A DNA stretch of 32,726 bases from a virus: positions 1 through 32,726 of the IMG/VR virus record IMGVR_UViG_3300022752_000244; one strand, given 5' to 3'. Both the position numbers and the translations under genes were made by a program. Shown in pieces: positions 763-13,452 of this stretch (positions are counted from its first letter, which is position 1; the number at the start of each line of letters is the position of its first letter). The notes beneath the pieces were generated by a model that was not told the origin of the DNA, did no database searches, and saw only the letters and a program-made list of their open reading frames with translations.

Positions 763-1236
763 TTAGGCCGCCAGCCTCCTATTCTGTTTAGTTGCATTGA
801 AACAAGTAATGCCGATCGAAAGCATTGCAGCGATAACCTTAAGGTTATCATCGAACATGATTGCGTTTGCTTCCGCAGCGCAAGTAAAACCTTCGCTCTT
901 GAAGTAATCTTCGAGAAGATCAATCTTAAGCTGCGCGTCCCCGCGCATATCGTTTTCACCGCGCGAAAGAAAAACGTCATGGCCAAGGCCCTGTTCTTCC
1001 AGAAAAATATGGTTGGAAGGGTGAGGCGAACGAGCCGTGCAAATGATAACCGTGTGACCGGCAGCCTTGATTGCTTTCATGCTAGCAGCAAGAGGCAGAA
1101 GCGAGTCGGCCATGATCTTTTCATGCGTGTTATTTTCGAGCCAATGCTCAAGGTTCAGCGAACCATCGGGCAGGGTATTCTGGCGATGGCTGGAGTCGAT
1201 AACCGTGCCGTCGAGGTCGAAAATTACGTAAGCCAT
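763..1236 (-). CDS. HAD-superfamily phosphatase, PNK 3'-phosphatase-like
   Basis: This 157-residue protein is a small HAD hydrolase. Motif I is FDLDGT (nucleophile D7, acid/base D9), motif II is CTARS (T67), the motif III lysine is probably K104 in QLK, and motif IV is FDDN (D129, D130). The segment with LEHW and SRGENDMRGDAQLK resembles the phosphatase half of T4-type polynucleotide kinase and stand-alone phage nucleotidases, so nucleotide or 3'-phosphate removal is likely; the exact substrate is inferred. There is no kinase P-loop. The start at 1236 has GGAAGGA upstream. It is transcribed alone from 1264-1292 and ends at the terminator 728-761. Confidence 0.85.
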   Translation of the reverse strand: MAYVIFDLDGTVIDSSHRQNTLPDGSLNLEHWLENNTHEKIMADSLLPLAASMKAIKAAGHTVIICTARSPHPSNHIFLEEQGLGHDVFLSRGENDMRGDAQLKIDLLEDYFKSEGFTCAAEANAIMFDDNLKVIAAMLSIGITCFNATKQNRRLAA

Positions 1237-1979: not shown

Positions 1980-1998
1980 TTTGGCGCTAGCGCGCTGC

Positions 1999-2126
1999 AT
2001 TAAATTCTCACTTGCGCGTTTTGGCGCTGCGCGCACATTAAATTCTCACTCATATTAAATTTGCACTCATATTAAATTCGCACTTGACTTTTGGCGCATT
2101 AATTTTTCACTCATTAAATTTTCACT
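1999..2126 (+). repeat. Six AT-rich iterons
   Basis: Six direct copies of a 14-mer, consensus ATTAAATTYNCACT, begin at 1999, 2037, 2054, 2071, 2098 and 2113. Copies 2 to 4 are spaced exactly 17 bp and share CAT after the 14-mer. TTTTGGCGC boxes lie between copies 1 and 2 and copies 4 and 5. Such arrays are typical of replication or partition protein binding sites; the function is inferred. Confidence 0.75.
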
Positions 2127-2127
2127 C

Positions 2128-2286
2128 TTTGTTCTCGGTTTGTTCACGGTCTGTTCCGCTGTTCACGGTCTGTTCCCGGTCCGTTCCCGGTTTGTTCTCG
2201 TTCTGTTCTGTTCCGGTGGAACAAACCGGGAACAAACAGGGAACCTCTACCGAATCGGTAGACATTGATTGGAACAAACCGGGAAC
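2128..2286. repeat. 11-bp GTTC/GAAC array (GTTC-N7-GTTC boxes)
   Basis: GTTC recurs at 2131, 2142, 2153, 2161, 2172, 2183, 2194 and 2205, and in reverse as GAAC at 2219, 2230, 2241, 2272 and 2283. Six GTTC pairs and three GAAC pairs are exactly 11 bp apart, i.e. nine GTTC-N7-GTTC elements, the form of the LexA (SOS) box in many Alphaproteobacteria. The intervening bases are usually CGG followed by TTT or TCT. They could be LexA sites, enhancer sites or partition iterons. Confidence 0.7.
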
Positions 2287-2310: not shown

Positions 2311-2335
2311 CCGATTGGCACGATTCTTGCATGAC
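2311..2335 (+). promoter_or_regulatory. Sigma54-type promoter in left arm of a 25-bp inverted repeat
   Basis: TTGGCACG-N4-TTGCAT (2315-2332) matches the RpoN -24/-12 consensus fully, with GG (2317-2318) and GC (2329-2330) separated by 10 bp. The whole 25 bp recurs as an exact reverse complement at 2722-2746. The start would be near 2342, running right. No activator gene is visible in the window. Confidence 0.55.
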
Positions 2336-2342
2336 GCGATAT

Positions 2343-2484
2343 TGAGAATCATTCGCAATGCTAATGCGAACCATTCGCAAATCACATTCCAGTGTGATAG
2401 TTTCATATAGAACCACATTTTAATGTGTCCGTCCTTTATTGATAATGATTCGCAATAGCCGCCCTTTATTGATAATGATTCGCA
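2343..2484. promoter_or_regulatory. Four Fur-box-like 7-1-7 palindromes
   Basis: Fifteen-bp elements lie at 2343-2357 (TGAGAATCATTCGCA), 2365-2379, 2440-2454 (TGATAATGATTCGCA) and 2470-2484 (same). They fit the Fur 7-1-7 pattern TGATAAT-N-ATTATCA with two or more mismatches each, and ATTCGCA half-sites as in some alphaproteobacterial iron boxes. The last two sit in a 30-bp direct repeat (2431-2460, 2461-2490). Two small palindromes at 2381-2398 and 2414-2427 lie between. Confidence 0.4.
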
Positions 2485-2490
2485 ATGCCT

Positions 2491-2570
2491 GCCCTTGCCT
2501 GCCCTTGCCTGCCCTTGCCTGCCCTTGCCTGCCCTTGCCTGCCCTTGCCTGCCCTTGCCTGCCCTTGCCT
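2491..2570. repeat. Eight perfect copies of a 10-bp repeat
   Basis: GCCCTTGCCT is repeated eight times without a mismatch, with partial units on both sides. The period of 10 is not a multiple of three, so it is not maintained by coding. On the minus strand GGG recurs every 10 bp with 7-nt loops, meeting the usual G-quadruplex rule, and the period is close to one helical turn. Confidence 0.9.
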
Positions 2571-2721
2571 GCCATATCCCTCCGACCCTGCCCAAAAATG
2601 CCCGCAAATGGCCCTTAGAGCGCGAAAGCGGCCCGGCCCGCACCTACCCTAGCTCGAGGCCTTGCCCTATGCTCTACGGGCCGGACATAAGGGGAACAAA
2701 CAAAAACACGAATAGGCAGGA

Positions 2722-2746
2722 GTCATGCAAGAATCGTGCCAATCGG
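2722..2746 (-). promoter_or_regulatory. Sigma54-type promoter in right arm of the 25-bp inverted repeat
   Basis: This is the exact reverse complement of 2311-2335, so the same -24/-12 element now reads left, with GG at 2740-2739 and GC at 2728-2727 and a start near 2715. The two arms face each other across 386 bp that hold the Fur-like boxes and the decamer repeat. Confidence 0.5.
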
Positions 2747-2794: not shown

Positions 2795-3064
2795 TTAAGC
2801 TTTATTGCCAATCACCTTAATAACGCGACCATCAGGATAAAGTAAAAATTCGCCGGATTCCGCGTATTTTTCGGCTCTGCTAATATAGGGCGAAGCATAG
2901 GCGAGATCACCGTAAGGTGTGATGCAAACGATATGGCCTTTATTCAATGCCTGTTCTGCCTCTTCCCTATCGCTTAAATAAACATATACGGGAATGTTGC
3001 GAACAATCTCGTTGTTCGTGATGTTATTCGTCCAGACGACATCGCAATTGTCCTGAATAGCCAT
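2795..3064 (-). CDS. Hypothetical protein, 89 aa
   Basis: The protein is a soluble mixed alpha/beta type without membrane segments; features are VYVYLSDREEAEQALNKG in the middle and LLYPDGRVIKVIG at the end. The family is not recognised. ATG 3064 follows AAGGGACTAATACA, a ribosome site like that of the HAD phosphatase gene. It lies downstream of a stem-loop at 3081-3115, so it is either read through from the genes to the right or has a promoter I cannot identify. It ends at a strong terminator. Confidence 0.7.
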   Translation of the reverse strand: MAIQDNCDVVWTNNITNNEIVRNIPVYVYLSDREEAEQALNKGHIVCITPYGDLAYASPYISRAEKYAESGEFLLYPDGRVIKVIGNKA

Positions 3065-12165: not shown

Positions 12166-13452
12166 ATGATAGTAAGCAGAGCTGACATCCCTACGGATGT
12201 AATTGTACAATACCCCGGCGCTTTTATGCGGGTTCCAATTGCGAATTATCTAAAAGAACTAGAGGTTGATCCTCTACCCTCTCAGATAGCTCTCATAAAT
12301 GGAATAAATAATCCCAAATACCGCTTTGGGTGCGCAGCTCTGTCTCGCCGTCAGGGTAAAACCTATATTGCAAACGTTGTGGGCCAGGTAGTTTCACTAG
12401 TACCCGGCTCCAATGTTCTAATCATGGCACCAAACTATAATCTCTCTAGTATTTCATTTGATTTACAAAGATCACTTATTAAGAGATTTAATCTTGAAGT
12501 TGCTAAAGATAACGCTAAAGACAGAGTTATTGAGCTATCTAATGGCTCCACAATCCGAATTGGTTCGGTTAATCAGGTTGATAGCTGCGTAGGGCGCTCC
12601 TACGATCTTATTATCTTTGACGAAGCCGCGCTCACAGATGGTCTAGATGCCTTTAACGTATCGCTCAGACCTACTCTAGATAAACCAAATTCAAAAGCAC
12701 TCTTTATTTCTACCCCTCGTGGTAAGAATAACTGGTTTTCAAAATTATTTGATCGAGGATTTAGTGATGAATTCCCAGAATGGTTTTCTGTCAAGGCTAC
12801 TTATAAGGATAATCCTAGAATGTCTGAACAGGATGTTGCAGAAGCACGTCGATCAATGTCAGATGCAGAGTTTAGGCAGGAATACGAAGCTGACTTCTCA
12901 ACCTTCGAAGGTAAATGTTGGCAGATCAAAGACGATTGTATACGTACCTTTGAACTCAATCTTAAGAAGTGTGATGTTTTCGCCGGGCTCGACCTCGGGT
13001 TTAGAGATCCAACCGCCTTCGTGGTAGTCGCATATAACTGGGAAGATGAAAACTTCTATATTCTAGATGAGTACCTGGATAGTGAGGCCGTAACTTCAGG
13101 ACATGCTAAGAGTATTAGAGCACTTATGGACAAGTGGAATATAGATTACATCTATATCGACTCCGCAAACCAGCAGCAGCGTTATGACTTCGCACAAGAA
13201 TACGATATTCCAACTACAAATGCGAAGAAATCCGTACTAGATGGAATTGGTTATGTAGCATCTCTAGCGGATAATGATAGAATTATCATTGATCCCGAAC
13301 TTAAACATGTATTATACTCTGTAGATCAGTATCAGTGGGATCCAAATCAAAGTCTACAGAAAGAAAAGCCACTACATAATGAAGCGTCACACATGGCCGA
13401 TGCTCTTAGGTACGCACTTTATAGTTATAAAACTAGTGTTGGTGGATTCTAA
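12166..13452 (+). CDS. terL: Terminase large subunit
   Basis: This 428-residue packaging motor has an N-terminal ATPase with Walker A variant SRRQGKT (about residues 60-66), Walker B LIIFDEAA (D152, E153) and motif III FISTPRG, followed by an RNase H-like nuclease with GLDLGFRDPTAF (D276), YIDSAN (D332) and HMADALRYAL (D412). The length and all three nuclease acids are as expected, so it should translocate and cut DNA. Only one base separates it from the upstream stop, and its ribosome site is weak, so coupling is likely. A new promoter follows at 13491. Confidence 0.95.
   Translation: MIVSRADIPTDVIVQYPGAFMRVPIANYLKELEVDPLPSQIALINGINNPKYRFGCAALSRRQGKTYIANVVGQVVSLVPGSNVLIMAPNYNLSSISFDLQRSLIKRFNLEVAKDNAKDRVIELSNGSTIRIGSVNQVDSCVGRSYDLIIFDEAALTDGLDAFNVSLRPTLDKPNSKALFISTPRGKNNWFSKLFDRGFSDEFPEWFSVKATYKDNPRMSEQDVAEARRSMSDAEFRQEYEADFSTFEGKCWQIKDDCIRTFELNLKKCDVFAGLDLGFRDPTAFVVVAYNWEDENFYILDEYLDSEAVTSGHAKSIRALMDKWNIDYIYIDSANQQQRYDFAQEYDIPTTNAKKSVLDGIGYVASLADNDRIIIDPELKHVLYSVDQYQWDPNQSLQKEKPLHNEASHMADALRYALYSYKTSVGGF

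Follow-up and report, generated by a model that had tools for sequence, protein, structure and literature searches.

Do two consensus sigma54 sites that face each other in a phage genome serve to start transcription, or are they there for something else? The question is raised by positions 2311–2746 of a viral contig, of which we analysed one stretch of 32,726 nucleotides, referred to below as the window. The initial annotation described this locus as a perfect 25-bp inverted repeat with a convergent sigma54-type promoter in each arm, and allowed that the arms might also delimit a segment that is mobile or can invert.

The inverted repeat and its sigma54 sites

Positions 2311–2335 and 2722–2746 are indeed exact reverse complements over 25 bp and are separated by 386 bp. 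By our own arithmetic, a perfect repeat of this length within about 450 bp is expected about 1e-8 times in such a window. Both arms read TTGGCACG-ATTC-TTGCA, with the GG-N10-GC spacing and zero mismatches to the sigma54 consensus including its flanks, which confirms the full RpoN −24/−12 consensus assigned to each of them and their facing orientation. The strict pattern TGGCACG-N4-TTGCW matches twice in the 771-bp region 1990–2760 and nowhere in the rest of the 32.7 kb, and it was not found in 2000 dinucleotide shuffles of this region. No exact match to the arm was present in 2.9 million viral contigs.

A gene-free array of regulator-type sites

The arms belong to an array of about 770 bp (1990–2760) that contains no convincing gene and holds nine alphaproteobacterial-type LexA boxes, four Fur boxes and the two sigma54 sites. 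The features of the array and its anchors are as follows.

763–1236, minus strand: homologue of T5 dmp (deoxynucleoside-5'-monophosphatase), matching dmp of Demerecviridae
1998–2126, plus strand: CATTAAATTNTCACT, five copies
2131–2208, plus strand: six LexA boxes of the alphaproteobacterial type, GTTC-N7-GTTC, overlapping one another at 11-bp intervals (motif class from PMC3323433)
2219–2286, minus strand: three LexA-type boxes in the opposite orientation (2219–2233, 2230–2244, 2272–2286)
2245–2305: two palindromes CTCTACC(G/A)AATCGGTAGA (CTACC...GGTAG), at 2245–2262 and 2288–2305
2311–2335, plus strand: left arm of the inverted repeat, with sigma54 site TTGGCACGATTCTTGCA at 2315–2331, facing right
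2341–2381: two Fur-type boxes (2341–2359, 2363–2381)
2383–2427: two CACATT dyads, CACATTCCAGTGTG and CACATTTTAATGTG, read from the sequence (2383–2396, 2414–2427)
2438–2486: two identical Fur-type boxes ATTGATAATGATTCGCAAT (2438–2456, 2468–2486)
2486–2573, plus strand: decamer TGCCTGCCCT, 8.8 perfect copies
2722–2746, minus strand: right arm of the inverted repeat, with sigma54 site TTGGCACGATTCTTGCA at 2726–2742, facing left
2760–2796: hairpin flanked by A/T runs, bordering the array on the right
12166–13452, plus strand: T5-like large terminase, right anchor

The nine GTTC-N7-GTTC boxes at 2131–2286, which had been overlooked in the initial annotation, keep an 11-bp phase, and their mean number in shuffled sequence is 0.012. 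Alphaproteobacteria have this motif as their LexA box, whereas CTGT-N8-ACAG serves in most beta- and gammaproteobacteria (PMC3323433). The four Fur-like boxes and the decamer array previously reported between the arms are real and lie at 2341–2486 and 2486–2573. With the patterns used for the array, the other 32 kb of the window contain no LexA-, Fur- or sigma54-type site; the search patterns for Fur and DnaA were taken from general knowledge. Zur boxes were not found in the window, and palindromes resembling TGATATAACATATCA are visible by eye in a metagenomic relative, L086. On its minus strand, the decamer array shows GGG at each 10-nt step and could fold into G-quadruplexes. The hairpin at 2760–2796 is a probable terminator of the minus-strand gene 2795–3064.

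Position of the array in a T5-like genome

The terminase of the window is about 50% identical to those of Vibrio T5-like phages, and its portal, prohead protease and tail protein families are T5-like as well; judged by these proteins, the contig belongs to a T5-like phage. The array sits between the homologues of T5 dmp and terminase. In T5, dmp is a pre-early gene located in the first-step-transfer terminal repeat. Therefore, with 763–1236 as the dmp homologue, the array would lie in the counterpart of the T5 first-step-transfer zone, i.e. in the DNA that enters first, the window itself being a linear fragment. The pre-early gene A1 has no match in the window at 1e-5 (the contig is a fragment), and it adjoins dmp in the relative G037. 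The host is probably alphaproteobacterial, an assignment that derives from the same LexA motif that is under discussion here.

Positions 1–1990 of the window also contain perfect sigma70 promoters (TTGACA-N17-TATAAT, then TTTTGGCGC) that face minus-strand sigma70 promoters, at 1–29/67–95 and 608–636/677–706. The plus-strand promoters oppose all genes of this part of the window. The same facing arrangement is seen in the relatives L083, L084 and L086, whose non-coding DNA on the dmp side has AACATAAT...TTTATC as a recurring repeat, together with palindromes TTAACC-N5-GGTTAA; both resemble further regulator sites.

Recurrence in relatives and cultured T5-like phages

At the corresponding place, metagenomic relatives carry three sigma54 sites within 63 bp (L074), six sigma54 sites arranged as three head-on pairs and accompanied by Fur boxes (L112/G041), or sigma54 and Fur sites (G068). 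Alphaproteobacterial LexA boxes together with Fur boxes are found in G004, G034 and G037, and one such LexA box in G033. The terminase of G004 is 93% identical to that of the window, yet G004 has LexA and Fur boxes and no sigma54 site, so that the mixture shifts quickly while the site classes recur. The initial annotation had named conservation of the repeat with loss of the GG-N10-GC core as an outcome that would speak against promoters; the relatives show the opposite, as the cores recur and the 25-bp repeat is absent.

A similar picture is given by ten cultured T5-like phages of gammaproteobacteria (T5, phi3, AhSzq-1, 70E35-1, ABurr, Sealy, My1, Stubb, Eps7 and phiR201). All their LexA boxes with zero or one mismatch fall in the terminal-repeat/pre-early region, the matches elsewhere having two mismatches. 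These boxes are of the gamma type, CTGT-N8-ACAG, and thus match the class of the host. The window, G004, G033, G034 and G037 have the alpha type without the gamma type, and the gamma phages the reverse. Fur boxes of the cultured phages are also located in the terminal-repeat/pre-early region, where the Fur-like matches at T5 228, Sealy 204 and phiR201 147 are inside dmp, near the left end, and may be a coding coincidence; phi3 and ABurr have no Fur box by the pattern used. Sigma54 sites are present in this region in five of the ten (phi3, AhSzq-1, 70E35-1, ABurr and My1) and absent from T5; one Klebsiella sigma54 match is inside the A1 gene. The annotated injection stop signal (iss) of T5 contains tandem Fur boxes, three of them by the pattern used for the other phages, a LexA box and one or more DnaA boxes, all intergenic.

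Ten unrelated non-T5 phages (1.1 Mb) contained no LexA box, no sigma54 match in which GG and GC were both intact, and three Fur-like matches. The unrelated phage rV5 (DQ832317) has two Fur-like boxes 136 bp apart, at 116907 and 117043. Rhizobium phage RHph_N37 and Dinoroseobacter phage R5C, which bear A1 and are outside the T5 family, lack the arrays, so A1 alone does not predict them.

Sigma54 pairs in other viruses

Tightly paired sigma54 sites occur face to face in 57 viral stretches, where our own arithmetic gives an expectation of about 0.02, and back to back in 64. We had considered the face-to-face orientation a special feature. However, as back-to-back pairs are equally frequent, the claim is limited to clustering. 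Near the pairs, the density of Fur boxes is about 6–10 times, and that of DnaA boxes about 12 times, what it is at a greater distance, although the counts are small and many of the stretches are related. Two further ideas were dropped: the density of alphaproteobacterial LexA boxes near the pairs in these mixed viruses was not above that of the reversed control, and the pairs are not strictly non-coding, as 67 of the 153 pairs are within ORF calls of at least 120 aa against a background coverage of 71%, which is a modest depletion only. One of the stretches, L312, belongs to a T7-like podovirus whose terminase has an array of sigma54 and Fur sites nearby, and the habit of carrying such arrays is therefore not confined to T5-like phages. 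In L312, many sigma54-like sites and several Fur boxes occupy about 600 bp of positions 1–780, at the contig end. Tight sigma54 pairs are seen in many unrelated viruses (L105–L161 and L282–L332), where several adjoin a terminase and several are accompanied by two DnaA boxes TTATCCACA, 11 bp apart.

Interpretation of the array

Fur and LexA both act as repressors. The closed complex that sigma54 holoenzyme forms is stable and silent (PMC3844500). Stable and silent binding of a host protein is, by their sequences, the common denominator of the three site classes. The explanation that we favor, with rather better than even confidence, is that the array is a set of candidate landing sites for host DNA-binding proteins and acts as a brake on injection or as a decoy. 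The facing “promoters” are then probably not ordinary promoters, but bait for host proteins or sites at which these act as a brake. Each arm would provide the sigma54 RNA polymerase holoenzyme with a high-affinity site within an array for LexA, Fur and perhaps other host proteins, and the entering DNA, bound by host repressors and poised sigma54 polymerase, would become a dense, mostly transcriptionally silent protein–DNA block. Such a block might hold or pace injection until the pre-early proteins act, for which few molecules would be needed. Alternatively, replication would multiply the sites and thereby withdraw the regulators from the host. The analysis establishes the sites, how they cluster, where they lie in the terminal-repeat/pre-early region of relatives and, for the cultured gammaproteobacterial phages, the agreement between LexA motif class and host class; from these we infer protein binding, the window's host class and the brake and decoy roles. 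The uneven distribution of the site classes, with Fur boxes missing from phi3 and ABurr and sigma54 sites from T5, speaks against a landing array. Against the decoy role, so few sites would titrate the abundant Fur and LexA weakly before phage replication, and the podovirus array of L312 is at odds with an injection brake that is purely T5-specific.

Transcription of phage DNA from convergent sigma54 promoters under a host activator would employ the left-facing arm for the minus-strand genes below 1774, which it could reach, and the right-facing arm for an antisense RNA. The full consensus, the correct spacing and the regulator-like sites between the arms agree with it. However, the right-facing arm is directed in antisense at the minus-strand gene 2795–3064 and is followed by no gene on its own strand, sigma70 promoters are already available on both strands of the zone, and relatives have sigma54 sites that face each other at a distance of 1–5 bp, form arrays of six (L112) or stand back to back. 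Sites that overlap head-on or are arrayed in this way cannot all fire, and a spacing of a few bases appears to suit protein capture better than transcription. We consider such transcription unlikely. The sites, their orientation, the regulator-like surroundings and the recurrence of sigma54 sites in relatives survive from the original proposal, whereas convergent promoters with enhancers find no support. The repeated sites taken for enhancers fit better, as Fur and LexA sites, with further host-protein binding. A mobile or invertible segment of 436 bp would agree with two perfectly inverted 25-bp arms that enclose 386 bp, but the core of the repeat is accounted for by the sigma54 consensus, PHROGs recognized no recombinase in the 19 window proteins that were scanned, the sequence flanking the repeat shows no target duplication, and the arm has no exact copy among the viral contigs. 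This suggestion of the initial annotation can be given very little credence.

The 11-bp repeats, AT-rich 15-mers and decamers could instead be iterons and the unwinding element of a replication origin, recognized by a phage initiator and resembling host sites only secondarily. Dense direct repeats in helix phase and the DnaA boxes in the counterparts of the gamma phages are in keeping with an origin. It is nevertheless improbable, because three unrelated host consensus motifs are matched together, the LexA motif shifts with host class, and the array has neither a turn in GC skew nor a strict DnaA box. Still less credible is ordinary regulation of the pre-early genes by the iron, SOS and nitrogen state of the host: the array is upstream of minus-strand genes and two of the regulators are repressors, but the LexA and Fur boxes of the window are clear of the sigma70 promoters found, and those of the T5 iss lie between two gene 3' ends.

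Relation to known systems

The landing array that we propose most closely resembles the iss/first-step-transfer DNA of T5 (Demerecviridae), which is likewise non-coding, repeat-rich and near dmp, and combines tandem Fur boxes with LexA boxes and sites for further host proteins; the window differs by its alpha-type LexA boxes, its sigma54 sites and the lack of a DnaA box. Repeats, palindromes and DnaA boxes have been described in the iss, and host components have been suspected (PMC13250531). We also tried the T5 iss repeat GTGCAAATCCGAC as a homologue of the window 15-mers, but a profile from T5 and phi3 gave a weak match and no cluster of strong hits. Phage P1 uses a host SOS box too, at the LexA-controlled promoter P2coi. 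There, the LexA site overlaps one promoter, whereas the window has nine boxes in phase, together with sites for other regulators and away from the promoters found. With sigma54-dependent bacterial promoters the window shares the −24/−12 sequence and spacing (PMC3844500), but its sites form a facing pair without genes ahead and those of its relatives overlap or are arrayed. The open literature that we searched, which did not extend to older work on T5 pre-early functions, contained nothing relevant on phage decoy arrays or on Fur boxes in T5-like phages.

The injection stop signal of T5 has been known for decades and lacks a mechanism. DnaA boxes are the only host-protein sites named for the iss in the open paper that we found (PMC13250531). 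The Fur, LexA and sigma54 arrays across T5-like phages supply named host candidates, which can be removed singly in E. coli K-12. More tentatively, at somewhat less than even confidence, we suggest that phages carry “regulator trap” DNA dedicated to this end: gene-free arrays that join sites for several global regulators of the host (LexA, Fur, sigma54 polymerase and DnaA), recoded to the motif classes of the host and placed in the first-entering DNA, which would brake entry or disarm the host regulatory network. If binding is confirmed, these arrays would represent a kind of phage DNA whose action lies in capturing proteins and not in genes.
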